Source: an uncultured Gordonibacter sp.
GTDB taxonomy: Bacteria > Actinomycetota > Coriobacteriia > Coriobacteriales > Eggerthellaceae
DNA length: 33,398 bases
Direction of reading: 5' to 3'
Assembly: GCA_904420575.1 (NCBI GenBank)
Contig: CAJFVW010000242.1
Coordinates: 1-33,398 of the forward strand
The notes under the pieces are model-generated. The model was given only the letters and a program-made list of their open reading frames with translations. It was not told the origin of the DNA and did not search any database. This document shows positions 20,295-33,398 of this stretch, one piece after another; positions within the stretch are counted from its first letter, which is position 1; each line of letters begins with the position of its first letter. Position numbers and translations under genes: made by a program.

Positions 20295-20332
20295 ACATGT
20301 CGAAATTGTCTTCAATGGGAGGAATGGGCCTT

Positions 20333-21655
20333 ATGCCGTCAATGAAGGAATCCTTGTTGCGCAAGATCGAATCCCGCGAGATCGTGTGCGGGGTCGTAGG
20401 CCTTGGTTACGTGGGTCTTCCGCTTGCCGTGGAAAAGGCGAAGGCCGGGTTTCGGACCATTGGGTTCGACGTCCAGCCGGAAAAGGTGGAAATGGTCAAT
20501 GCGGGGCACAACTACATCGGAGACGTGGTCGATAGCGACCTTGCGGTTCTTGTGGAAGCCGGTGCGATGTCCGCAACGACCGACTTCTCGTTCGTGAAGG
20601 ACGTCGACTTCGTGGCGATCTGCGTGCCTACGCCCCTTGACGAGCATCAGCAGCCGGACATCTCGTGCGTCGAATCCTCGACGCGTTCCGTTGCGCAGCA
20701 CCTGAGGCCGGGAACCATGGTCGTGTTGGAATCGACTACCTACCCCGGGACGACGGAGGAGCTTATCAAGCCCCTTCTGGAAGAAGGGTCGGGCCTGAAG
20801 TGCGGCGAAGACTTCTATCTTGGTTTTTCGCCCGAGCGCGTCGATCCAGGCAATTTGATTTACAAGACAAAGAACACTCCGAAAGTCGTAGGCGCCATTG
20901 GCGATGACGCCGTGGAAGTGATCGCGTCCATGTATGAGGCGGTTCTCGAAGGCGGAGTGACGCGCGTCTCGTCGCCTGCCGTGGCCGAAATGGAGAAGAT
21001 CCTCGAGAACACGTACCGCAATGTGAACATCGGCCTGGTGAACGAGCTGGCCATGCTGTGTGATCGCATGGGCATCGACATCTGGGAAGTGGTCGACGCC
21101 GCCAAGACGAAGCCCTATGGGTTCACGGCATTTTATCCGGGGCCAGGACTGGGCGGGCATTGCATCCCCCTCGATCCTTACTATCTGTCTTGGAAGGCGC
21201 GCGAATACGGCTTCCACACCTCCATGATCGAATCTTCCATGATGGTGAACGACCGCATGCCCGAGTACTGCGTTGACCGCGCCGCACGCGTCCTGAATAG
21301 GCACAAGAAAGCCATGAACGGCGCCAACGTGCTGGTTCTGGGCGTGGCCTACAAGCAGGACATCGACGATTGCCGGGAAAGCCCCGCTCTGCGCGTTGTC
21401 GAAATTCTCGAAGAGCGTGGCGCCAAGGTGTCCTATTTCGACCCATGGGTTCCGGAATACCGTCACAATGGCAGCGTGCGCACGGGCATTCCCGCGCTGA
21501 CGCCCGAAGTCGTGGCCGAAGCCGACCTCGTGATGGTGACGGCGGCGCATACCAACGTGGATTACGAGATGGTGCAGGCCCACGCTCGGGCGGTCTTCGA
21601 CACCAAAAACGCCATGAAGTCGGTAGCCGCGCGCGACAACATAGAGGTGCTGTAG
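20333..21655 (+). CDS. wbpA: UDP-N-acetyl-D-glucosamine 6-dehydrogenase (WbpA/WecC family)
   Basis: 440 residues from ATG 20333. The N-terminal Rossmann motif is GLGYVGLP (23-30), followed by STTYPGTTEE, FSPERVDPGN, the central-domain AEMEKILENTYRNVNIGLVNE, and the catalytic Cys277 in GPGLGGHCIPLDPYYL. The family oxidises C6 of UDP-GlcNAc (or GalNAc) to the uronic acid with two NAD+. Its immediate partners at 21658, 30258 and 32374 match WbpB, WbpE and WbpD, so UDP-GlcNAcA for the 2,3-diacetamido-glucuronic acid route is the best reading. In-frame ATGs at 20297, 20315, 20324 and 20342 exist; GGGAGGA (20317-20323) and the promoter candidate favour 20333. The next gene starts after two bases. 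Confidence 0.9.
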   Translation: MPSMKESLLRKIESREIVCGVVGLGYVGLPLAVEKAKAGFRTIGFDVQPEKVEMVNAGHNYIGDVVDSDLAVLVEAGAMSATTDFSFVKDVDFVAICVPTPLDEHQQPDISCVESSTRSVAQHLRPGTMVVLESTTYPGTTEELIKPLLEEGSGLKCGEDFYLGFSPERVDPGNLIYKTKNTPKVVGAIGDDAVEVIASMYEAVLEGGVTRVSSPAVAEMEKILENTYRNVNIGLVNELAMLCDRMGIDIWEVVDAAKTKPYGFTAFYPGPGLGGHCIPLDPYYLSWKAREYGFHTSMIESSMMVNDRMPEYCVDRAARVLNRHKKAMNGANVLVLGVAYKQDIDDCRESPALRVVEILEERGAKVSYFDPWVPEYRHNGSVRTGIPALTPEVVAEADLVMVTAAHTNVDYEMVQAHARAVFDTKNAMKSVAARDNIEVL

Positions 21656-21657
21656 GT

Positions 21658-22740
21658 ATGAAGTACGCTCTCATCGGCTGCGGTCGCATTGCGACCAACC
21701 ACGTCAAGGCCGTCGTGAACAACGGACTCGAGTTCGTTGCGGCGTGCGACATCGTTCCGGAAAAGATAGAACAGCTCCTTGCGAAGCACGGCTTGGAAAG
21801 CGATGCATCCATTGCCCGCTACGCCGACTACCGTGCCATGTTGGCCGATCATCCCGATCTCGACCTCGTAGCCATCGCGACGGAAAGCGGCAAGCATGCG
21901 GCCATCGCGTTGGAATGCATCGATGCCGGCATGAACGTCATCATCGAGAAACCCATGGCAATGAGCATCGCCGACGCCGACGAGATCATCCGGCGCTCGG
22001 AGGAGCGACACGTCGTCGTATCGGCTTGCCATCAGAACCGGTTCAACGTCGCCGTCCAGAAGACGCGCGAAGCAGTCGAAAAAGGCCGCTTCGGGCGTCT
22101 TTCCCATGGCAGCATCCATGTCCGCTGGAACCGCAACAAGGACTACTACGCGCAGGCACCCTGGCGTGGCACCTGGGCCGAAGACGGCGGCTGCCTGATG
22201 AACCAGTGCATCCATGGCATCGACCTCTTGCGCTGGATGATGGGCGACGAGGTGGAGGAAGTGTTCGGCACCACCCGCCAGCAGTTCCACGACTACCTGG
22301 AGGCGGAAGACGTGGGCATGGCCGTGGTCAAGTTCAAGAACGGGGCCATCGGCACGATAGAGGGAACGACCAACGTCTATCCGCACAATCTGGAAGAGAC
22401 GCTGTACCTGTTCGGCGAGCGGGGCACGGTCAAGGTGGGTGGCACCTCTACCAACAACATCGACGCGTGGGACTTCGCGGATGAAACCGAGGACGACGTC
22501 GCCAACAAGGGACTGGAGGAAGAAACGAGCAACGTGTACGGCAATGGACATACGAGCCTGTACGCGGACGTGATGGAAGCAATCGAAACCGGGCGAAAGC
22601 CCTATGTCGACGCGGTTGCCGGACGCAACGCGCTTGAAATGGTGCTGGCAATTTACAAGAGCCAGAAGACGGGGCTGCCGGTCAAGCTTCCGCTCGATGA
22701 GTTCGCCAGCGTGGAGATGGCCGGGGAGTTCGACGCATAG
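21658..22740 (+). CDS. wbpB: UDP-GlcNAcA 3-dehydrogenase-like oxidoreductase (Gfo/Idh/MocA, WbpB-like)
   Basis: 360 residues. Nucleotide-binding GCGRIATNH lies at 7-15, and the family-defining EKP motif at 97-99 in VIIEKPMAMS. A CHQNRFN segment and NQCIHGIDLLRWMMG in the catalytic region carry the likely substrate-side His. WbpB oxidises C3 of UDP-GlcNAcA to the 3-keto form, which WbpE aminates; in that route the NADH is often recycled through 2-oxoglutarate. The gene lies two bases after wbpA, with AGAGG upstream of ATG 21658. A second Gfo/Idh gene at 31379 is frameshifted, so this copy is the only intact one in the window. Confidence 0.85.
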   Translation: MKYALIGCGRIATNHVKAVVNNGLEFVAACDIVPEKIEQLLAKHGLESDASIARYADYRAMLADHPDLDLVAIATESGKHAAIALECIDAGMNVIIEKPMAMSIADADEIIRRSEERHVVVSACHQNRFNVAVQKTREAVEKGRFGRLSHGSIHVRWNRNKDYYAQAPWRGTWAEDGGCLMNQCIHGIDLLRWMMGDEVEEVFGTTRQQFHDYLEAEDVGMAVVKFKNGAIGTIEGTTNVYPHNLEETLYLFGERGTVKVGGTSTNNIDAWDFADETEDDVANKGLEEETSNVYGNGHTSLYADVMEAIETGRKPYVDAVAGRNALEMVLAIYKSQKTGLPVKLPLDEFASVEMAGEFDA

Positions 22741-22764: not shown

Positions 22765-23004
22765 GTGACTAACAGCGAAAAATACGATCAAGCATTCATC
22801 GAAACCATCGGCGTGACGGCCGACCAGTTGAATGCCGACTTGCTGTACCAGTCTGTGCCCGCATGGGATTCGGTGGGGCACATGCAGCTGGTGGCGGCGC
22901 TGGAAGATGCCTTCGACATCATGCTGGACACCGACGACATCATCGATTTGAGCTCGTATGACAAAGGCAAGGAGATCCTTGCAAAATACGACGTGGGGCT
23001 TTGA
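22765..23004 (+). CDS. Acyl carrier protein
   Basis: 79 residues, acidic, four-helix ACP-like. The phosphopantetheine attachment serine is Ser36 in PAWDSVGHMQLV, which matches the D-S-V/L motif of stand-alone carrier proteins used by secondary-metabolite and glycan-modifying pathways rather than the classical DSLD of fatty acid synthase. GTG 22765 follows AGGAAAGG by seven bases. It is coupled to the following AMP-ligase (ATGA-type overlap at 23002-23006), which very likely loads it. The downstream LpxD-like protein is a plausible consumer. Confidence 0.88.
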   Translation: MTNSEKYDQAFIETIGVTADQLNADLLYQSVPAWDSVGHMQLVAALEDAFDIMLDTDDIIDLSSYDKGKEILAKYDVGL

Positions 23005-24377
23005 TGTCGGATCTTGCCCTGATAGGAGCCGGTCGGTCGCTGACCTACGAAGAGTTGATGGCCGAAGCGGAGAAGGTGAGCGCCCCGTTGCATGGGCGCT
23101 CCCTTGTCTTTCTGCGTGCAAGGAACGCCATCGAAGCCGTGGTGGGCTACGTGGCGTTTCTCTCGCATGGTCATGTTCCGGTCATGCTGAACGACCATCT
23201 TCCCAACGAAACGTTCGCCGATTTGATGGGGCGTTATCGTCCGGAATACGTCTGGGGTCCTGACGACGGATTCGTGGAGGGAAGACGCACGCTCGAATAC
23301 GGATCGTACGTGCTGCACCGCGTCGGAGGGGATGCCGGTTCGGAATCCGATCTGCATCCCGAACTGGCACTACTGCTCAGCACGTCGGGCAGCACCGGTT
23401 CCCCGAAGCTGGTGAGGCTTTCTCGGGGAAACCTTGCCAGCAACACGGACTCCATCATCGAGTACCTGGGCATCACCAGCGAAGACCGCGCCATCACGAC
23501 GTTGCCCTTCTCGTATTCGTACGGCATATCGATCGTCAACACGCATCTCAAAGCCAAGGCGCGCATCATTCTCACCGACAAAACCTTTATGGATCGAGAT
23601 TTCTGGAGCCTGCTGCGCGACGAGGGAGCAACGACGTTCGGAGGCGTGCCGTACAGTTACGCCATGCTGTCGCGCTTGCGGTTTGGGCGCATGGACGTGC
23701 CGTCGTTGCGCTATCTGACGCAGGCCGGAGGGCGTTTGGGCGAGGACCTGCATCGCGAATTCGCGGAGCTGTGTGCTGGGAAGGGCATGGGCTTCGTGGT
23801 CATGTATGGCCAAACGGAAGCCACGGCGCGCATGGCGTACCTGCCTGCCCGTCGCTCGCTGGAGAAGGTCGGCATGATAGGCGTGGCCATTCCGGGAGGG
23901 GAGTTGAGCCTTGAAGGGGAAGATGGCTCCGTCCTGAATGGCGCTGGCGTAGAAGGCGAGCTCGTTTACCGCGGAGCAAACGTCTCGTGGGGCTATGCGC
24001 TCGACCGTGCGGATTTGGCGAAAGGCGACGAGCGAGGCGGCGTTCTGCGAACCGGAGACCTGGCAACGCGCGACGAAGAGGGCTTTTATCGGATCGTTGG
24101 CCGCAAGAAGCGCTTTTTGAAGCTGTTTGGTAACCGCATTGGCCTTGACGAGGTGGAAGCGTTGTTGGCAAGGAAGGGCGTTTCCGCTGCATGCGTGGGC
24201 AGCGACGATGCTATGAAGATTTACATCGAATCCGGCGAAGCACCGGCTGTTCGCGATATGATAGCCGACGCCTTGGGCATTCACCCGTCGGCCTTCCGCG
24301 TGGAGGCGATGGACGCCCTGCCTCGAACGGAGGCGGGGAAAATCAAGTACGCTTCTCTTTGGGATTGCCATGTTTGA
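23004..24377 (+). CDS. AMP-forming acyl/aryl/amino-acid ligase (ANL superfamily)
   Basis: 457 residues from ATG 23004. All core ANL motifs are visible: STSGSTGSPK (126-135, P-loop A3), MYGQTEA (267-273, A5), LRTGDLA (348-354, A7), GRKKRFLKLFGNRI (366-379, hinge A8) and catalytic Lys446 in TEAGKIKY. Such enzymes adenylate a carboxylic acid and transfer it to a thiol; directly downstream of an ACP gene, ACP loading is most likely. It is shorter than typical acyl-CoA synthetases (500+ residues), mostly in the N-terminal subdomain, like stand-alone A domains. The acid substrate cannot be read from sequence. It overlaps both neighbours. Confidence 0.88.
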   Translation: MSDLALIGAGRSLTYEELMAEAEKVSAPLHGRSLVFLRARNAIEAVVGYVAFLSHGHVPVMLNDHLPNETFADLMGRYRPEYVWGPDDGFVEGRRTLEYGSYVLHRVGGDAGSESDLHPELALLLSTSGSTGSPKLVRLSRGNLASNTDSIIEYLGITSEDRAITTLPFSYSYGISIVNTHLKAKARIILTDKTFMDRDFWSLLRDEGATTFGGVPYSYAMLSRLRFGRMDVPSLRYLTQAGGRLGEDLHREFAELCAGKGMGFVVMYGQTEATARMAYLPARRSLEKVGMIGVAIPGGELSLEGEDGSVLNGAGVEGELVYRGANVSWGYALDRADLAKGDERGGVLRTGDLATRDEEGFYRIVGRKKRFLKLFGNRIGLDEVEALLARKGVSAACVGSDDAMKIYIESGEAPAVRDMIADALGIHPSAFRVEAMDALPRTEAGKIKYASLWDCHV

Positions 24378-25413
24378 CTATACTGAGCTTTTGGAACAGG
24401 ACCCGTTCGGGCTTCCCCATGACGAAAAGGCCGCCTTGCATGCCGGCTGGCTTGCCAGCTTGACTGCTCATCATCGTGAGGCGTGCCTCTCGTACGATCG
24501 GCTATGCGCGGTACTGGGCGACACGCCCGCTTTGCCTGTAAGGCTGTTCAAGGAGTACGACTTGAAGAGCATTCCCGACGACGAAGTGGCCAAGACCATG
24601 ACGTCATCGGGCACGACAGGGCAAAGGGTGTCCAAGATCTACTTGGATCGCGAAACCTCGGCGCGTCAGACGAGGGTCTTGGCAAAAACGGTTTCGGCGT
24701 TCACGGGCAAGGGCCGCATGCCCATGCTCGTCATCGACTCCAAGGCCGTTTTGAAGAACAGGAACATGTTCAGTGCGCGCGGTGCCGGGATTCTCGGTTT
24801 CTCCCTGTTGGGCCGCGATGTCACGTACGCGCTCGACGAGAACATGGATCTCGACCTTGAAGCGATATACGCCTTCATGGAGCGTCATCAAGGCGACCAA
24901 GCGATGCTTTTCGGCTTCACCTTCATGATATGGCAGCACTTTTGCCGTGCGCTCAAGGACAAAGGCATGGCTCTCGATTTGCACGGCACCATGATCCATG
25001 GCGGCGGATGGAAAAAACTTGCCGATCAAAACATCAGCAACGAAGAATTCAAACAGGCGGTTAGAGAGACGTGCGGCATCGAGCGGGTTTGCAACTATTA
25101 TGGCATGGTCGAGCAGACGGGTTCCATTTTCATGGAGTGCGAATGCGGGCATTTGCATGCTTCGGTCTTCAACGACGTCGCCATGGTGGATCCGTTCACC
25201 TTCGACGAGGTTTCGCGCGGCCGCGGGCTGATCAAATGTACGTCGCTTGTGCCGACGAGTTATCCCGGACATGTGCTTCTGACGGAAGACGAGGGGGAGG
25301 TTCTCGGCGAAGACGACTGCCCCTGCGGACGCAAGGGCAAGTACTTCGCGGTGTATGGCCGCTTGCAGGGAGCCGAGATCAGGGGGTGCAGCGATACCTA
25401 TGAGCGAAAGTAA
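24370..25413 (+). CDS. LuxE-like acyl-protein synthetase / acyltransferase (PaaK-LuxE family)
   Basis: 347 residues overlapping the ligase stop by 8 bases. The ANL-like phosphate loop is TMTSSGTTGQRVSKIY (about 76-91), with a mid-protein NYYGMVEQTGSIF equivalent to the A5 motif. Near the C-terminus are two Cys-rich patches (ECECGH and DCPCGRKG) and Cys340 in IRGCSD, which aligns with the conserved acyl-accepting cysteine region of LuxE. LuxE activates an acid with ATP and presents it as a thioester to LuxC for reduction to an aldehyde. A LuxC-like gene follows immediately, overlapping by 14 bases, while LuxA/LuxB luciferase genes are absent. The acyl chain is unknown. Confidence 0.85.
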   Translation: MFDYTELLEQDPFGLPHDEKAALHAGWLASLTAHHREACLSYDRLCAVLGDTPALPVRLFKEYDLKSIPDDEVAKTMTSSGTTGQRVSKIYLDRETSARQTRVLAKTVSAFTGKGRMPMLVIDSKAVLKNRNMFSARGAGILGFSLLGRDVTYALDENMDLDLEAIYAFMERHQGDQAMLFGFTFMIWQHFCRALKDKGMALDLHGTMIHGGGWKKLADQNISNEEFKQAVRETCGIERVCNYYGMVEQTGSIFMECECGHLHASVFNDVAMVDPFTFDEVSRGRGLIKCTSLVPTSYPGHVLLTEDEGEVLGEDDCPCGRKGKYFAVYGRLQGAEIRGCSDTYERK

Positions 25414-26587
25414 GAACGGGCTGCGCCATCTCGTTGGCTCTGGCCGCATGGACACGCGTCCTTGGCCGCCCTTTTCCGATGAGGCGGTCGCCTTTCTTGC
25501 GGACGTGTCCGCCAAGCTGATGGCCGACCCGTCGGTTCGGTCGAACCCGGACGTGGTGTCGTTTGCCTACTGGTGCCGCAAAGGGCACTTGGCGCGGCTG
25601 AAAGAAGCCATGGCGGCTGAGAATGCGCATCGGCTGGGAAGAGGTCTGGCTTTCCACGTGGCCCCTTCGAACGTGCCGGTGAACTTCGCCTTTTCGTTTG
25701 CGTTCGGCCTCCTTGCCGGCAATGCGAACATCGTGCGCGTTCCCAGCAAGCCGTATCCCCAAGTGACGCTCATCTGCTCGGCCGTTTCCGCCGTCTTGGA
25801 GGATCACCCGCGCATGGAAGGGCGTGTGACGTTCGTTTCCTACCCTGCCGACAATGCGGTCACGTCCGATTTTTCTCGCATGGCCGATGCGCGGATTCTC
25901 TGGGGAGGAGACGAGACGGTAGCGTCGTTGCGTGCGCTGCCTTGCAAGCCCCGTTGCGTGGACGTGGTGTTTCCCAACCGCTATTCGATCTCCGTGCTCG
26001 ATGCCCAAGCCGTTGGCGCCTGCGATGCGGCTGCGCTCCAGAAGCTTGCCGAGCGCTTTTACAACGACACGTACCTCATGGATCAGAATGCCTGTTCGTC
26101 GGCACGTCTGGTGCTGTGGTTGCAGGAGGCTGACCGCGCGGTGACTGGCCGGTTCTGGCAGGCCTTGAGAGAATGCGCCTCCCGTGCCTACGGGTTGCAG
26201 GGAGCGGTGGCCGTGGACAAGTACGTGCAGCTGTGCGAGGACGCGATCGAGGGCCGCGCATGCGAGAAGATGACGTTCGACCCCCTGCTTTCGGTCGTTC
26301 GCCTGTCCTGCCTTCCAGAGGATCTGGGCTCCCTGCATGGCAAGGGCGGGTACTTCTACGAATGCGCCATCGATTCGTTCGAGGACGTGGTCGACATGCT
26401 GGACGAGAGGTGCCAGACCGTCACCTGCTTCGGCGTTGACGCGGAGAAGCTGCGTGGGACAGTTCTGTCTCACGGCGCGCGTGGCGTTGACCGCGTGGTT
26501 GGCGTGGGATCCGCCATGGACATCGACATCGTGTGGGACGGTTACGATTTGGTGGGGACGTTGTCGCGGACAGTGGATGCGAGGTGA
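25400..26587 (+). CDS. LuxC-like acyl reductase (acyl-CoA/acyl-protein reductase)
   Basis: 395 residues from ATG 25400. This is an aldehyde-dehydrogenase-related LuxC family protein: HVAPSNVPVNFAFSFAFGL (about 77-95), GNANIVRVPSKP, ILWGGDETVASLRAL, and the nucleophile Cys232 in MDQNACSSARLVLW. LuxC reduces an enzyme-bound acyl thioester to an aldehyde with NADPH. Vibrio LuxC proteins are larger (about 480 residues), so this is a compact version lacking part of the N- and C-terminal extensions. Its coupling to the LuxE-like gene implies a two-protein acid reductase. The aldehyde could be the acceptor for the split transketolase encoded downstream (inference). Confidence 0.85.
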   Translation: MSESKNGLRHLVGSGRMDTRPWPPFSDEAVAFLADVSAKLMADPSVRSNPDVVSFAYWCRKGHLARLKEAMAAENAHRLGRGLAFHVAPSNVPVNFAFSFAFGLLAGNANIVRVPSKPYPQVTLICSAVSAVLEDHPRMEGRVTFVSYPADNAVTSDFSRMADARILWGGDETVASLRALPCKPRCVDVVFPNRYSISVLDAQAVGACDAAALQKLAERFYNDTYLMDQNACSSARLVLWLQEADRAVTGRFWQALRECASRAYGLQGAVAVDKYVQLCEDAIEGRACEKMTFDPLLSVVRLSCLPEDLGSLHGKGGYFYECAIDSFEDVVDMLDERCQTVTCFGVDAEKLRGTVLSHGARGVDRVVGVGSAMDIDIVWDGYDLVGTLSRTVDAR

Positions 26588-26591
26588 CGAC

Positions 26592-27356
26592 ATGGGTCTG
26601 CTCGACGGAAAGAATGCAGTGGTCACCGGATCGAACCGGGGCATAGGCCGCGCGATAGTCGAGGCGTTTGCCGGCAATGGGGCGAACGTGTGGGCTTGCG
26701 CGCGCAAAGAGACGGCTGATTTCGTTGCGGACATGGCGGACGTCGCCGGGCGGCACGGGGTTGCGGTGCGTCCGGTGTTCTTCGACATGGCCGATGCGGC
26801 CTCCATGGCGCGCGCCGTCCGCTCCATGCGGTCCGACGGGCGCCCGATCGACGTTTTGGTCAACAATGCGGGAATCATCTCCGAGAACGCCTCGTTCCTG
26901 ATGACGTCTTCCGATTCGCTCGAAAGGGTTTTCGAGGTCAATTTCTTCAGCCAGATGCGCTTCACGCAGTATGTCGTGCGCATGATGACGTCCTCGCCTG
27001 CTGGTGGTTCTATCGTGAACATGTCGTCCATAGCGGCGCGTGCGGGCATGCCGGGGCAGTTGGGCTATGCCTGCAGCAAAGCCGCCATGGAAACCGCCAC
27101 CATCATGCTCGCCCGCGAGCTCTCGCGAAACAACATCCGCGTCAATGCCGTTGCTCCCGGCTTCGTTCGTACCGATATGGGACTTGAGGCATCAAGCGAG
27201 GTGATTGACGACACGCTGTCGTCAAGCGTGATGGGCAGAATGGGCGAGGCATCCGAGATCGCTGATGCAGTGCTGTTCCTTGCATCCGATCTTTCTTCGT
27301 ACATGACCGGTCAGGTTCTTCATGTAGATGGGGGGGGGTCTTTCCTGAATGGATGA
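26592..27356 (+). CDS. Short-chain dehydrogenase/reductase (FabG-like)
   Basis: 254 residues from ATG 26592, with GAGGTG five bases upstream at the preceding stop. Classical SDR features: TGSNRGIG (12-19), NNAG (91-94), catalytic Ser145/146, Tyr159 and Lys163 (YACSK), and a C-terminal VDGGGS. It probably reduces a keto group with NADPH, or oxidises a hydroxyl. In this setting a keto product from the transketolase, or a 3-ketoacyl group on the ACP, are candidate substrates. Its last codons contain a G9 run (27330-27338), and its stop overlaps the start of the transketolase N subunit by 8 bases. Confidence 0.88.
   Translation: MGLLDGKNAVVTGSNRGIGRAIVEAFAGNGANVWACARKETADFVADMADVAGRHGVAVRPVFFDMADAASMARAVRSMRSDGRPIDVLVNNAGIISENASFLMTSSDSLERVFEVNFFSQMRFTQYVVRMMTSSPAGGSIVNMSSIAARAGMPGQLGYACSKAAMETATIMLARELSRNNIRVNAVAPGFVRTDMGLEASSEVIDDTLSSSVMGRMGEASEIADAVLFLASDLSSYMTGQVLHVDGGGSFLNG
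27330..27338 (+). repeat. G9 homopolymer at the SDR/transketolase junction
   Basis: Nine G encode Gly-Gly-Gly at the SDR C-terminus, 11 bases before the transketolase ATG (27349). A one-base loss would move the SDR stop to just before that ATG, and a gain would extend the SDR frame past it. Slippage would mainly alter translational coupling rather than the SDR fold. Confidence 0.85.
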
Positions 27357-28227
27357 TATCCGGAAAAGCTCAGGCGAGGTCGTGGTGAGCGACGTTACCG
27401 AAAAGGCGCGCCAGATGCGTGCCGATTGCCTCGTGATGGGGCTGGCCGCCGGAAACAGTGGCATCCATCTGGGAGGCAGCTGCTCGGCCATCGAAATCCT
27501 GGCCACGCTGTACTTCGGCGCCATGCGGTTCGACCCCTGCAATCCTGGCGACTTTCTGCGCGACCGCTTCGTTTTCAGCAAGGGACATGGGGTTCCGGCC
27601 CAGTACGCGGCCTTCCATCAGATGGGTCTGGTGTCCGACGCCGACCTGCGCACGTTCAAGCAGGAAGGTTCTCGCCTGACGGGGCATCCCTCCTTGGGCA
27701 TGGTGGAGGGCATCGACTTTGCGAGCGGCAGCCTGGGCCAAGGCCTTTCTTTGGGAGTGGGCACCTGCCTTGCGTTGCGCCGCAAGGGAAACGGGACTTC
27801 CCGCGTGTTCGTCTTGATGGGCGACGGCGAATGCGACGAGGGGTCGGTGTGGGAGGCGGCGATGAGCGCCGCCCACTACGCCCTGGGCAACCTCGTCGCC
27901 GTCATCGACGCCAACGCCCTGCAATACGACGGCGAGACGTCCCGCGTGCTCGGCCTAGGCGACCTTTGCGGCAAATGGCGCGCTTTCGGGTGGGATGCGG
28001 TCGAGGTCGATGGGCACGACGTCGAGGCGCTCGCAGAGGTGTTCTCGCAGCCGGCTGCGCCGCGTCCGCGCGCCGTGGTCGCGCACACGGTCAAAGGCAA
28101 GGGCTTCTCATTTTCGGAGAACGTTGCGGCATGGCACCACTCTCGCCTGACGCGCGACCTTTATGACCAAGGAATGAGGGAGCTGGGCTTTTCACAGGAG
28201 GAGGCGAACCTGCGTGCTGAGCTTTGA
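27349..28227 (+). CDS. Transketolase N-terminal subunit (ThDP-binding half)
   Basis: 292 residues. The thiamine-diphosphate motif is present in full: GDGECDEGSVWEA (158-170) ending in Asn189 of VIDAN. FSKGH (77-81), GHPSLGMVEGIDFASGSLGQG (112-132) and VVAHTVKGKGFSF also match transketolase. As a separate polypeptide it needs the C-terminal partner encoded next. Split transketolases are common in Actinobacteria and Archaea, and in sugar or aminoshikimate pathways. Transketolase moves a two-carbon ketol unit onto an aldehyde acceptor; the LuxE/LuxC pair upstream would supply an aldehyde (inference). ATG 27349 overlaps the SDR stop by 8 bases. Confidence 0.9.
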   Translation: MDDIRKSSGEVVVSDVTEKARQMRADCLVMGLAAGNSGIHLGGSCSAIEILATLYFGAMRFDPCNPGDFLRDRFVFSKGHGVPAQYAAFHQMGLVSDADLRTFKQEGSRLTGHPSLGMVEGIDFASGSLGQGLSLGVGTCLALRRKGNGTSRVFVLMGDGECDEGSVWEAAMSAAHYALGNLVAVIDANALQYDGETSRVLGLGDLCGKWRAFGWDAVEVDGHDVEALAEVFSQPAAPRPRAVVAHTVKGKGFSFSENVAAWHHSRLTRDLYDQGMRELGFSQEEANLRAEL

Positions 28228-29194
28228 CTCGAGATCGATAAGGACTTGGGCGCACCTTGGTTCCTGCGGGGCATTCGGACTTGCCATGTGCGAGGCGGCG
28301 GAAAGAGGCGAAGACGTCGTGGCCGTCACGGCAGACCTCTGCACGTATTCGGGTCTCGACCGCTTTCGCGACGCCTATCCCGACCGCCTGTTCAACGTGG
28401 GCATTGCCGAGCAGAATCTTGTCGGCGTTGCGGCAGGCATGGCCAAGGAAGGCCTCGTGCCCTTTGCCACGACGTATGGAACGTTCGCCTCGGCGCGCAG
28501 CCTCGATCAGGTGCGCGTCTCCATGGGATACATGAAGCTTCCCGTCAAGCTGGTTGGTCTGACGGCGGGATTCTCGAGCGGCATCTTGGGCGCAACGCAT
28601 ATGAGCTGCGAAGACCTTGCCATCATGCGTTCCATACCCAATCTGGTCGTGCTTTCTCCAGCCGATACGACCGAGACGGTGAAGGCGACTTTGGCGGCTG
28701 CCGAGTGCGACGCTCCCGTGTATCTGCGCCTGACGGGCGTCATGGGCAGTCCTGTCGTGTACAAGTCCGACTACGATTTCCGCATCGGCAAGGCGATCCG
28801 CCTGCGAGAAGGCTCTGACGTCCTGGTTTTTGCGACAGGCCCGATGGTTGCGGAGAGCATGAAGGCGGCCAAGCTTCTTGCCGAGCGCGGCGTGGAGTCG
28901 GAGGTCGTGGACGTGCATACCCTGAAGCCGCTTGACCCGGATGTGGTGGAGGAGGCATGCTCGAGCGCCCATGTGCTGGTGGCGACAGTCGAGGAGCACA
29001 GCGTCATCGGGGGCCTGGGGTCGGCCGTCGCCGGAGCCATGGCCGCACGCGGCAGCGCTCGGCCTTTGGTTTCCTGCGGAGTGAACGACTTTTTCCCCCA
29101 TGCTGCCCCCTACGGCGACCTGATACGGGAATGTGGTTTGACAGGCGATCTCATTGCCGAGCGGATTGCGGCGGAACTGGAAAGAAGGAACTGA
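28214..29194 (+). CDS. Transketolase C-terminal subunit (pyrimidine and C-terminal domains)
   Basis: 326 residues from GTG 28214, overlapping the N subunit by 14 bases. AGGAGG at 28198-28203 lies 10 bases upstream. The catalytic glutamate that activates ThDP is Glu66 in NVGIAEQNLVG. FATTYGTFASARSLDQVR and THMSCEDLAIMRSIPN follow, and the C-terminal domain has VVDVHTLKPLD and ATVEEHSVIGGLGSAV. Both halves keep the catalytic residues, so the pair should form an active enzyme. A DXP-synthase-like or dehydrogenase-like activity is less likely given the N-subunit motifs, but it is not excluded. Confidence 0.88.
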   Translation: MLSFDSRSIRTWAHLGSCGAFGLAMCEAAERGEDVVAVTADLCTYSGLDRFRDAYPDRLFNVGIAEQNLVGVAAGMAKEGLVPFATTYGTFASARSLDQVRVSMGYMKLPVKLVGLTAGFSSGILGATHMSCEDLAIMRSIPNLVVLSPADTTETVKATLAAAECDAPVYLRLTGVMGSPVVYKSDYDFRIGKAIRLREGSDVLVFATGPMVAESMKAAKLLAERGVESEVVDVHTLKPLDPDVVEEACSSAHVLVATVEEHSVIGGLGSAVAGAMAARGSARPLVSCGVNDFFPHAAPYGDLIRECGLTGDLIAERIAAELERRN

Positions 29195-29199
29195 TCGAA

Positions 29200-30099
29200 A
29201 TGCTGCTTTCGGTGGACGACATCCAGAAGCTACTTGACGAGGGAGGCTTTCGGGCTCATTACCGGGGGCCTGGAGGCGTTTCTATAACGGGGTTCTCGGA
29301 TCCTGGTGACTATCGGCCCCAGACCGCCATTTGGCTTGGCGCATCGAAGTACTTGCATCTGGGCGAGGGCATGGAATGCGCAGACGTCGCGCTTCTGTTC
29401 GCCGCACCCGACTTCGAAGGGCTGGACTCGTTTCCTGCCGTGTTCGTTTGCGACGATCCCAGGAATGCCTTCATGTACGTGGTGGAATCCGTGGTGCCCG
29501 CCCGCAGGCTTTCCGGCGTGAGCGAGCATGCCCATGTCGACCCATCCGCCCGTTTGGGCGAGAGGGTGTATGTTGGTCCCGGGGCCTTCGTCGATGCCGA
29601 CGTTTCGATCGGCGATGGGACGATGGTGTATCCGCACGCGTCGATCAAGCGCGGCACGGTCATAGGTGCCGACTGCGTCATCATGGACGGATGCGTGATC
29701 GGCAACGAGGGCTTCGGGTTCAGACGCTGTCCGGACGGGGCCCTCAAGCGTCTGCCGCATTTGGGACGCGTGGTCATTGGCGACCGCGTCGAAGTCGGTT
29801 CCAACTCGATCATCGACAAAGGTACGTTTCGCGACACGGTTGTGGAGAGCGGCACCAAGATAGACACGCTGACCGTGATAGGGCACAACGCCCATATTGG
29901 AAGGGATTGTTTTGTCATTGGCGGCTTCGTGGGCGGCAATTCCGTGATCGGGGATGGTTGCGAACTGATCCACATGCAATGCAAGAACCGTGTTTCCATT
30001 GGAGCCGGCGCGAAGGTTGGCATTGGGAGCGTCGTCATCCGCGACATTCCTGGCGGCGTCGAGGTCTTTGGGAACCCGGCTCGGGTTATCAGGAAGTAG
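29200..30099 (+). CDS. LpxD-like ACP-dependent N-acyltransferase (left-handed beta-helix)
   Basis: 299 residues from ATG 29200, 10 bases after AGAAGGA. An N-terminal alpha/beta domain of about 105 residues is followed by hexapeptide repeats from about residue 110 onward. Characteristic LpxD signatures are present in order: VIGNEGFGF, HLGRVVIGDRVEVGSNSIIDKG, then VIGHNAHIG, whose His229 aligns with the catalytic base of LpxD. LpxD transfers an acyl chain from ACP to the amino group of a UDP-glucosamine derivative. No other lipid A gene is visible, and the C-terminal helical extension of true LpxD is missing. A role in N-acylating a UDP-amino sugar of this cluster with the acyl group of the ACP at 22765 is the simplest inference. 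Confidence 0.83.
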   Translation: MLLSVDDIQKLLDEGGFRAHYRGPGGVSITGFSDPGDYRPQTAIWLGASKYLHLGEGMECADVALLFAAPDFEGLDSFPAVFVCDDPRNAFMYVVESVVPARRLSGVSEHAHVDPSARLGERVYVGPGAFVDADVSIGDGTMVYPHASIKRGTVIGADCVIMDGCVIGNEGFGFRRCPDGALKRLPHLGRVVIGDRVEVGSNSIIDKGTFRDTVVESGTKIDTLTVIGHNAHIGRDCFVIGGFVGGNSVIGDGCELIHMQCKNRVSIGAGAKVGIGSVVIRDIPGGVEVFGNPARVIRK

Positions 30100-30257: not shown

Positions 30258-31382
30258 ATGCAGTTCATTGATTTGAGGGCTCAATTCGAACGCATCGAAG
30301 ACGATGTGTGTCGCCGCGTGGACGCCGTCCTCCGGAGCCAGAAATACGTGATGGGGCCGGAGATTGCCGAACTCGAGGAAGAGTTGGCTTCCTATGCGGG
30401 AGTCAAGCATGTCTTCACCTGTTCGAGTGGCACCGATGCCCTGGTGATCCCCCTCATGGCTTTCGACCTCAAGAAGACCGATGCCGTGTTCGTGCCGTCG
30501 TTCACGTTCTTCGCATCGGGAGAGAGCGTGACGCTGGCCGGAGGCACCCCCGTCTTCGTCGATTCCGATGCGCAGACCTACAACATCAGCCCTGAAGATC
30601 TCGAACGTGCGATCAAGGAGGTGCTTGCCGAGGGCAAGCTGACACCGCGGGGAATCGTGGCGGTCGATCTGTTCGGACAGCTTGCGGATTACGCCGAGAT
30701 TCAGCGCATAGCGGACGAGCATGGCTTGTTCATCGTAGAGGATGCCGCACAGGGTTTTGGTGCGATGCGGGAAGGAAGGCGCGCCGGCAGTTTCGGCACG
30801 GTGGCGGCGACGTCGTTCTTTCCGGCCAAGCCCCTTGGGTGCTACGGCGACGGGGGCGCGATCTTCACCAACGACGACGATCTGGCCGACTTGATCCATT
30901 CGATTCGGGTCCATGGCCAAGGTGCAGACAAATACGACAACGTCCGCATTGGCGTCAACGGCCGCATGGACACGATTCAGGCTGCCGTCGTATTGTCGAA
31001 GCTGCAGATCTTCGACGATGAGATCGTCGCGCGCAACAAGGTGGCGCAGGCCTACGCCGAACGTCTTCAGGGTGTGCTGCACGTGCCCTCTGTGATGGAA
31101 GGGGACACGTCCGTTTGGGCACAGTACACTTTGCAGGCGAAAAGCTCCGAAGAGCGTCAGAAGATCATGGACGGGCTGAAAGAGCGAGGCATCCCGACCG
31201 CCTGTTACTATCCCATCCCCATGCACTTGTCCACCGCATATGCCGACCTCGGTTACAAGGAAGGCGATCTGCCCGTTTGCGAGGCGGCGGCACGACGGGT
31301 CTTCAGCATACCCATGCATCCCTATTTGACCATGAGGCAGATCGACGAGATAGCAGATGCCATCAAGGAGGTGCTCGCATGA
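30258..31382 (+). CDS. wbpE: UDP-2-acetamido-2-deoxy-3-oxo-glucuronate aminotransferase-like (DegT family, WbpE-like)
   Basis: 374 residues from ATG 30258, with AAAGGA eight bases upstream. It opens with the DLRAQFERI segment typical of WbpE/VioA/DegT enzymes. SSGTDALVIPLMA, the FVPSFTFFAS loop and VEDAAQGFGA bind PLP. Lys191 in FFPAKPLGCYGDGGA is the Schiff-base lysine; the FxPxKxLG context is the WbpE type and differs from the SFNGNK type at 10187. WbpE aminates C3 of the 3-keto uronic acid from WbpB. The stop overlaps the following ATG (ATGA at 31379). Substrate assignment rests on family motifs plus wbpA, wbpB and wbpD in the same locus. Confidence 0.88.
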   Translation: MQFIDLRAQFERIEDDVCRRVDAVLRSQKYVMGPEIAELEEELASYAGVKHVFTCSSGTDALVIPLMAFDLKKTDAVFVPSFTFFASGESVTLAGGTPVFVDSDAQTYNISPEDLERAIKEVLAEGKLTPRGIVAVDLFGQLADYAEIQRIADEHGLFIVEDAAQGFGAMREGRRAGSFGTVAATSFFPAKPLGCYGDGGAIFTNDDDLADLIHSIRVHGQGADKYDNVRIGVNGRMDTIQAAVVLSKLQIFDDEIVARNKVAQAYAERLQGVLHVPSVMEGDTSVWAQYTLQAKSSEERQKIMDGLKERGIPTACYYPIPMHLSTAYADLGYKEGDLPVCEAAARRVFSIPMHPYLTMRQIDEIADAIKEVLA

Positions 31383-32361
31383 ACGAGGATCGTCCCGTTT
31401 TGCGCGTAGGCGTGCTTGGCACGGGAAACATGGGCCGGAACCATGTGCGCGTGCTGTCCACCATGCCCGAGTACCAGTTGGTAGGGTGCTATGATGCGTC
31501 AAGCGAAGCTTGCAAGGCTCAGGCGTCGCTTTACGGCATTCGCGCCTTCTCGTCCCCCGAGGAATTGTTTGACGCTTGCGACGTCGTGAACGTAGCGACG
31601 CCTTCTTTCCTGCACAAGGAGCATGCCATCGCTGCAGCGATGGCGGGGTGCCATGTTCTGGTCGAAAAGCCCATCGCTTTGAACGCCGAGGACGCCCAAG
31701 ACATCATCGACGCCTGCGCAGGGGGGGGGTGCGTCTTTGTGTCGGGCATGTGGAGCGGTTCAACCCTGCCATCGAGGCGCTGTCCGGCATATTGGCTAAC
31801 GAGGAAGTCCTGTCGCTCGACTTCAGGCGCCTGAGTCCGTTTTCTCCGCGCATATCCGACGCCGACGTCGTGCAAGACCTCATGATCCACGACATCGACA
31901 TCTTGAACGCCCTTGCATCGGCGCCCATCAAGCGCGTGGTGAGCCACGGAGCCAAGGTCTACACCGACAAACTCGACTATGCCCAGGCGCTCGTCACGTA
32001 CGAGGACGGGCTGGTTGCCAGCCTGACCGCCAGCCGCGTGACGGAATCCAAGGTGAGGGAGGCGACGGTCAGCGCCAAGGACGCATTCGTCACGGTAGAT
32101 TACCTGAATCGCACCGTAGAGATCTCGCGCAAGACCAATTTCGAGTTGAACATAGGTCATTCGATGGAATACAAGCAAGAGAACATCGTCGAGCGCGTGT
32201 TCGTACCCATTGCCGAGCCGCTGAGAAGCGAGTTCGCGCACTTCGCAGCCTGCATTCATTCGGGCGACGAAGTAAAGACGAGCGGTGAAATGGGGAAGCG
32301 TGCCGTTGAGCTGTGCATGGCGATTTCCCAAGGGGCGCTTGTCGGGCAGCAGTCCTCTTAG
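31379..32361 (+). pseudogene. Gfo/Idh/MocA oxidoreductase, frameshifted at a G9 tract
   Basis: The N-terminal part reads MNEDRPVLRVGVLGTGNMG, carries LVEKPIALN (EKP motif) and ends DIIDACAGGG at the nine-G run 31721-31729. In that frame translation then continues through about 34 nonsense residues to TGA at 31832-31834, giving a 151-residue product. The expected continuation (VRLCVGHVERFNPAI and the whole C-terminal domain with DVVQDLMIHDID) lies in another frame that runs to TAG 32359-32361. A tract of ten G (or seven) would restore a protein of about 327 residues, normal for the family. Both halves look well conserved, so the break is recent, reversible, or a base-calling error. It sits between wbpE and wbpD and may be a WbpB-type enzyme parallel to the one at 21658. 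Confidence 0.85.
31721..31729 (+). repeat. G9 homopolymer at the frameshift site
   Basis: The run of nine G is the exact point where the reading frame of the Gfo/Idh gene changes. A gain of one G restores the frame. G-tracts of this length are classic sites of slipped-strand mispairing. Confidence 0.9.
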
Positions 32362-33089: not shown

Positions 33090-33398
33090 ATGGAGATTAA
33101 ACGCAGCAGCTTTCTGGCCAAGGCGCTTTCCTGCATGTTGGCTGCAACCCTTGCTTTGACTTGTGGGGTTGCTCCGGCGTTTGCCACAGAGGGCGCGACA
33201 GGAGGAGCCGGTTCGGTCGGTCTTTCGGACGAAAGCGGGGAAGCGGCCGGTGCACCTGGCGAATCTGGCGAGGGCCCCGCCGAGCCCGCCGAGCCCGCCG
33301 AGCCCGCCGAACCCGCCGAGCCCGCCGAACCCGCCGAGCCCGCCGAACCCGCCGAGCCCGCCGAACCCGCCGAGCCCGGCGGGGGCGCCGAGCCCGCC
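33090..33398 (+). CDS. Secreted protein with Ala-Glu-Pro repeats (partial, runs off the window)
   Basis: ATG 33090 follows AAGGAG by five bases. The first 32 residues form a Sec signal peptide: basic start MEIKRSSFLAK, hydrophobic core ALSCMLAATLALTCGVA, and likely cleavage after PAFA. The mature start is Gly/Ser/Glu-rich, then residues 64-96 are 11 tandem Ala-Glu-Pro units, Gly-Gly-Gly, and another Ala-Glu-Pro at the edge. Such Pro-rich stalks usually span the cell wall and lift a distal domain outward; that domain is not in view. No function can be assigned. The neighbouring polysaccharide genes make a wall-associated protein plausible. Confidence 0.75.
   Translation, partial: MEIKRSSFLAKALSCMLAATLALTCGVAPAFATEGATGGAGSVGLSDESGEAAGAPGESGEGPAEPAEPAEPAEPAEPAEPAEPAEPAEPAEPAEPGGGAEPA
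33279..33377 (+). repeat. 9-bp coding tandem repeat (Ala-Glu-Pro), 11 units
   Basis: Eleven copies of GCCGARCCC. The first three use GAG; from the fourth on GAA and GAG alternate, so the effective DNA period becomes 18 bp. This implies later expansion by an 18-bp unit and likely length variation between strains. Confidence 0.9.

Follow-up and report, generated by a model that had tools for sequence, protein, structure and literature searches.

The window analysed here, 33,398 bases from an uncultured Gordonibacter sp., is one whole contig (CAJFVW010000242.1), assigned by homology to an incomplete genome bin of 2.96 Mb (245 contigs, ∼86% complete). The contig holds a surface-glycan locus, with a polysaccharide-biosynthesis epimerase/dehydratase, glycosyltransferases, sugar aminotransferases, an initiating sugar transferase and a nucleotide-sugar dehydrogenase. 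At 22765–30099, eight plus-strand open reading frames (ORFs) form a module that joins LuxE- and LuxC-like enzymes to a split transketolase, whose altered substrate site is the main subject of this report:

22765..23004, plus strand: acyl carrier protein (ACP); weak match to NCBIfam ACP (4.8e-5), Ser36 in DSVG (DSxG motif)
23001..24377, plus strand: AMP-forming acyl ligase, probably an acyl-ACP ligase (Pfam AMP-binding, 2.5e-44)
24370..25413, plus strand: LuxE-like acyl-protein synthetase (Pfam LuxE, 2.8e-44), a relative of LuxE in 7xc6
25400..26587, plus strand: LuxC-like acyl reductase (Pfam LuxC, 2.7e-27), a relative of 7xc6 chain A
26592..27356, plus strand: short-chain dehydrogenase/reductase (SDR) ketoreductase (Pfam adh_short_C2, 1.3e-61)
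27349..28227, plus strand: N-terminal, thiamine diphosphate (ThDP)-binding subunit of the split transketolase (TKN; Transketolase_N, 7e-41; PDB 6yak, 1.9e-63)
28214..29194, plus strand: C-terminal subunit of the split transketolase (TKC; Transket_pyr, 1.9e-37; Transketolase_C, 8e-26; PDB 6yaj, 1.8e-66)
29200..30099, plus strand: LpxD-like acyl-ACP N-acyltransferase (NF002060, 218.9 bits, cut-off 207)

All eight genes named in an earlier sequence-only reading were recovered as ORFs with intact catalytic residues. That reading had described coupling by overlaps or gaps of 0–6 bases; the coupling is indeed tight, with gaps of 4–5 bases, but overlaps extend to 14 bases (ACP/ligase −4, ligase/LuxE −8, LuxE/LuxC −14, LuxC/SDR +4, SDR/TKN −8, TKN/TKC −14, TKC/LpxD-like +5). 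Of two possible ligase starts, the ATG at 23004, overlapping the ACP stop, is more likely than the TTG at 23001. Outside the transketolase, the ACP attachment serine (Ser36) was present in 62/62 relatives and the ligase motif residues K136, E273, D353 and K447 were kept in 73–75 of 75, while LuxE Cys340 and LuxC Cys232, located by alignment of the window to 7xc6, were invariant (74/74 and 78/78); the catalytic Tyr and Lys of the SDR (YxxxK) are likewise intact. No luciferase family (Bac_luciferase, LuxA/LuxB) was found in the window, as had been noted from the sequence, or in the ∼86% complete bin.

The bin contains a further split transketolase pair on contig C38 and a DXS-like gene on C229, and a separate transketolase-like gene (at least one per genome) was found in all 41 genomes searched. 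The module enzyme is therefore not the central-metabolism copy, which removes the concern that it serves central metabolism only. Module C-subunits fell on one side of a branch from the housekeeping split enzymes sampled (SH-aLRT 99). The substrate phosphate of transketolases is bound by R358, S385, H461 and R520 (E. coli numbering), with D469 positioned next to the hydroxyl of the acceptor; H461, D469 and R520 correspond to human H416, D424 and R474. The contact of S385 with phosphate is stated for the E. coli enzyme (PMC5073344). Position matches between E. coli, human, Carboxydothermus hydrogenoformans and the window were checked by pairwise alignments and motif inspection, used in place of one multiple alignment in which S385 and R520 were off register in variable loops.

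R358, H461, D469 and R520 were kept in all 30 housekeeping copies. Among 40 module copies, H461, D469 and R520 were each kept in 0/40 and R358 in 25/40, and in five further module copies the first three were again absent (0/5 each); this loss of the phosphate and acceptor site, seen in 45/45 module copies versus none of the 30 housekeeping copies, is new here. Relative to E. coli, the window carries R358C, S385Y, H461T, D469L and R520V (TKC C18, Y45, T117, L125 and V176), where the R520 counterpart is uncertain by one position because of a one-residue insertion in the loop. The catalytic residues E66 (Glu411) and H129 of TKC are kept, as are the TKN histidines at human transketolase positions 37, 77, 110 and 258. 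Since the catalytic Glu and most of the ketol-contacting His residues are retained in module transketolases, these enzymes are predicted still to transfer a ketol group.

Substitutions at the same positions have been made in the laboratory. E. coli S385Y/D469T/R520Q moved preference from phosphorylated to non-phosphorylated aldehydes (PMC5073344), and R358I/H461S/R520Q converted 5-ketogluconate to tartaric semialdehyde, i.e. used a non-phosphorylated keto acid (PMC12016104). The window's S385Y, D469L and R520V occur naturally at positions altered for non-phosphorylated aldehydes, and the altered phosphate site provides the strongest computed support for what would be a non-phosphorylated, possibly acid-bearing, acceptor. 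Loss of H461 and D469 alone was rejected as a marker of the module, as other specialised split transketolases vary there too; R520 was kept in 14 of 15 non-module split transketolases, and its loss is the better marker. Another specialised class in Coriobacteriia (L145, L146, L147, L150) has H461→D and D469→N with R520 kept, and no LuxE gene was found within the 4 kb fetched for these loci.

Recurrence of the module was assessed by a LuxE-alignment search of 84,980 species genomes, which returned 80 loci; as the highest-scoring matches to the query, these form a biased sample, and genes in relatives were called with a simple ORF caller and tblastn. A split transketolase accompanied the ACP, ligase, LuxE, LuxC and SDR core in 36/80 loci, usually in the order SDR–TKN–TKC. 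Taxa represented among the retrieved loci included Clostridia, Bacteroidota, Gastranaerophilales, Duganella, Helicobacteraceae, an Alphaproteobacterium, Fretibacterium, Thermoguttaceae and Abditibacteriota. Same-strand adjacent pairs numbered 86 for LuxE–LuxC, 60 for ligase–LuxE, 49 for ACP–ligase, 40 for TKN–TKC and 33 for SDR–TKN. Dozens of unrelated genomes thus have these families as neighbours, which excludes a chance grouping and bears out the co-occurrence on which the sequence-only reading depended.

Evenly drawn samples placed the transketolase form in proportion. At LuxE E ≤ 1e-20, matches were found in 26/391 genomes of a clostridial class and 11/395 of a bacteroidal class; 38 LuxE loci fetched from these samples included a transketolase in 5 and the ligase–LuxC core in 21. 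Full-length LuxE matches occurred in five of 100 Coriobacteriia genomes, including the window's own, the only one with an adjoining transketolase, and LuxC occurred in 3/274 genomes of a gammaproteobacterial sample, one of them the sample's centre. The form with the transketolase is therefore widespread, yet in the minority within the larger ACP–ligase–LuxE–LuxC–SDR module. The window's LuxE was closest to coriobacterial copies without a transketolase (62–68%), its TKC was closest to a clostridial copy (60%), and the ten best matches of its SDR among module SDRs were all transketolase-adjacent. On an SDR tree inferred by a quick method, with many forks weakly supported, transketolase adjacency required 10 label changes versus a shuffled mean of 24.8 (0/500 shuffles as low). 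Because transketolase-adjacent SDRs cluster on this tree, SDR–TKN–TKC appears to move as a unit.

Other arrangements were seen among these loci. Two LuxE–LuxC pairs with one or two transketolases were present in L037, L048, L082, L085, L174 and L175, which suggests repeated rounds of reduction and extension. A lactate/malate-dehydrogenase-like gene directly follows LuxC in ten LuxE loci (e.g. L036, L072, L081, L098), a hint that those pathways involve a 2-hydroxy acid. The idea that a ThDP lyase replaces the transketolase was dropped: a first set had the transketolase in 0/8 lyase loci (Fisher p 0.009), but a later sample had it in 3/4.

The acyl acceptor was considered from the LpxD-like enzyme and from the genes that flank the module:

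20315..22740, plus strand: nucleotide-sugar dehydrogenase and another Gfo/Idh protein, on the amino-sugar side (TIGR03026, 432.7 bits; Gfo/Idh Pfam families)
30258..31382, plus strand: DegT-family sugar aminotransferase (Pfam DegT, 3.2e-105)
31379..32361, plus strand: Gfo/Idh sugar dehydrogenase, frame broken at a G run (tblastn, 59–68% to orthologues)

Enzymes of the LpxD family N-acylate UDP-sugars with acyl groups carried by ACP. The window's copy lies over the cut-off of subfamily NF002060 and below that of the equivalog TIGR01853 (191.1 versus 242.5 bits); it keeps the His matching E. coli LpxD H239 but not H276, and LpxC was not found in the bin. In two other Coriobacteriales genera the module has DegT orthologues 59–67% identical beside it, and there the same DegT–Gfo genes directly flank an ACP–ligase–LuxE–LuxC–SDR–LpxD block. 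With these neighbours conserved and no marked difference in GC content (60.8% versus 59.5%), we rejected a recent insertion of the module; its earlier description as inserted into the glycan locus is not supported. The DegT aminotransferase is the probable source of the acceptor amine. An intact orthologue of the downstream Gfo/Idh gene (L025) best fits a UDP-N-acetylglucosamine (UDP-GlcNAc) 3-dehydrogenase (239 bits, short of the curated threshold of 450), suggesting that the acceptor may be a 3-amino sugar like that formed by the GnnA/GnnB pathway. The N-acylation of an amino sugar predicted for the LpxD-like enzyme by the sequence-only reading fits these two neighbours.

The window's own copy of this Gfo/Idh gene is in two frames, split at a nine-G run (31721–31729), while intact orthologues exist in relatives. 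The split could be due to phase variation, to which the poly-A tract of V. cholerae wbeL offers a parallel, or to a sequencing or assembly error. Two more nine-G runs lie at 27330–27338 (3' end of the SDR) and 2095–2103; three such runs, against 1.24 expected runs of at least 8, is not significant. The contig end truncates a predicted secreted protein whose start, at 33090–33398, has a signal-like N-terminal region and an extended Pro-Ala-Glu repeat.

Among pathways for which a product has been proposed, the closest is that for tetronate in V. cholerae O1, RfbK-L-M-N-O (VC0249–VC0252 plus RfbK), a precedent that the sequence-only reading had overlooked. There, 2,4-dihydroxybutanoate is activated by RfbL for coenzyme A or RfbK; RfbN, which contains a LuxE domain, is an acyl protein synthase/acyl-CoA reductase; VC0250 and VC0252 are an iron-containing alcohol dehydrogenase and an acetyltransferase; and tetronate acylates perosamine (PMC12208996, PMC9201469, PMC4772473, PMC3441752). 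An ACP and acyl ligase pair, LuxE and LuxC functions and an acyltransferase are all present in the window as well, and an alcohol-forming dehydrogenase and an acyl group that ends on a sugar amine are proposed for it. The two differ in that V. cholerae has no transketolase, fuses the LuxE and LuxC functions in RfbN, has the iron-containing RfbM where the window has an SDR, and acylates perosamine rather than the UDP-GlcNAc-derived sugar that would be the acceptor here. The window's transketolase argues against a product identical to the V. cholerae 2,4-dihydroxybutanoyl group.

Also close is the luxC-luxE-fadD-tktAB-fabG-acpP module of Dickeya, where the same families stand adjacent, among them the split transketolase along with a hexapeptide acyltransferase and a DegT aminotransferase; its cluster ends in maa-vioA, an acyltransferase beside a sugar aminotransferase, as in the window. 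Since 2015, Dickeya papers have recorded this module, with tktA/tktB, between fliA and fliC under the terms fatty acid or sugar biosynthesis; one guesses at a "liposugar", and none assigns a mechanism. The sequence-only reading, which knew of LuxC/LuxE-like genes in flagellin islands but not with a split transketolase, is not supported on the novelty of that pairing. Unlike the window, the Dickeya module lies beside flagellin genes, has two FabG genes and encodes a Maa-type rather than an LpxD-type acyltransferase; no flagellin family was found in the window's bin. Flagellin glycosylation islands of Aeromonas group II and Enterobacteriaceae have a five-gene core (ACP, 3-oxoacyl-ACP reductase, AMP-ligase, LuxE, LuxC) in common with the window, but in a flagellar context and with no transketolase mentioned. 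Aeromonas piscicola AH-3 flagellin bears a 102 Da unit of unassigned identity; a dihydroxybutanoyl residue is also ∼102 Da, an arithmetic match only and not evidence.

At the level of single enzymes, the split transketolase of C. hydrogenoformans (6yaj/6yak) has the same two-gene architecture and catalytic residues (43% identity in the N subunit) but has retained the phosphate-holding residues missing from the module enzyme. The same holds for comparison with pentose-phosphate transketolase, whose ThDP-related catalytic Glu and His are shared, whereas R358, S385, H461 and R520 are C, Y, T and V in the window. The LuxE and LuxC proteins resemble those of the LuxCDE fatty acid reductase (7xc6), with both catalytic cysteines; unlike in luminous bacteria, they occur without luciferase, with a dedicated ligase and ACP, and in a glycan context.

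From these results we infer the substrates, donor, product, step order and acceptor sugar of a pathway, and put the chances about level that the eight genes build a hydroxylated short acyl group on the dedicated ACP and use it to N-acylate a nucleotide-activated amino sugar in this surface-glycan locus. LuxE would act on a small acid, probably a dicarboxylic one, activating one carboxyl for reduction by LuxC to a semialdehyde; the split transketolase would add a two-carbon ketol unit to this non-phosphorylated semialdehyde, and the SDR would reduce the new ketone. The ligase would then load the polyhydroxy acid on the ACP, from which the LpxD-like enzyme would transfer it to the amino group of a UDP-amino sugar that the Gfo/Idh and DegT enzymes provide. 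The overall logic would be that of the V. cholerae O1 tetronate pathway plus a chain-extension step. The scheme of acid, aldehyde, ketol and reduction had been put forward in the sequence-only reading; the loss of the phosphate-holding residues makes it more likely.

Several observations weigh against this proposal. LpxD-like enzymes are present in only some transketolase loci, and most relatives of the module have no transketolase yet keep the remaining parts. Loss of the phosphate site should also weaken the binding of ordinary ketose-phosphate donors, so that the donor may be hydroxypyruvate or another ketose. A thioesterase accompanies the module in ten other loci and directly precedes LuxE in eight (L065, L079, L081, L082, L086, L098, L104, L107), an arrangement that mirrors LuxD before LuxE in light-producing bacteria and suggests that reduction follows release of the acyl group from the ACP. 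The same parts could then act in another order, the ligase loading a starter on the ACP, the SDR acting on the ACP-bound chain, and the released acid being converted by LuxE and LuxC to an aldehyde that the transketolase caps, with the polyol tail attached by a glycosyltransferase or acyltransferase. KASIII-like genes in 11 loci and FabA-like genes in 13 favour that order as well, but these and the thioesterase are all absent from the window, the presence of the LpxD-like enzyme implies that the finished acyl group is on the ACP, and in the tetronate precedent ligase and ACP come last (PMC12208996); we consider it unlikely here, while taking it seriously.

Other explanations give the transketolase or the acyl genes a different role. 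The transketolase might be a side supplier that makes a glycan sugar precursor from central ketose phosphates and leaves the LuxC aldehyde untouched, as its place in a sugar locus and the other specialised split transketolases of Coriobacteriia would allow; this seems improbable to us given the loss of phosphate-holding residues in all 45 module copies and its coupling to SDR and LuxE/LuxC across phyla. A glycan-borne lipid, with LuxE/LuxC and ACP processing a long-chain fatty acid, has been proposed for flagellin islands with ACP, FabG, ligase, LuxE and LuxC (PMC4875605, PMC7874193, PMC7575072), but on family names alone. The best glycan precedent, tetronate, is a C4 acid, and making a lipid anchor would hardly call for a ketol transferase, so that we regard this as very improbable. 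For quinocarcin and naphthyridinomycin, two-carbon transfer to an ACP giving glycolyl-ACP has reportedly been proposed, and with an ACP in the same operon the transketolase could do likewise; such a role would leave LuxE/LuxC without one, neither a lipoyl-carrier protein nor an oxidant lies alongside, and the sequences fit transketolase better than pyruvate dehydrogenase, all of which makes it hardly credible.

More broadly, and more tentatively than for the locus itself, we propose that the module enzymes are a separate natural class of split transketolases that has moved off phosphorylated acceptors and extends LuxE/LuxC-made semialdehydes into aldonic-acid-like polyhydroxy acyl groups on surface amino sugars, in some loci perhaps through repeated rounds. 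If true, this would account for a gene set called "fatty acid biosynthesis" in flagellin-island genome papers, where no product is given, and would predict that bacterial glycans carry acyl decorations of a new kind. It would also mean that natural transketolases are changed at the positions that were engineered in the E. coli enzyme for non-phosphorylated aldehydes; such enzymes would have uses in biocatalysis and in testing how this specificity evolves.

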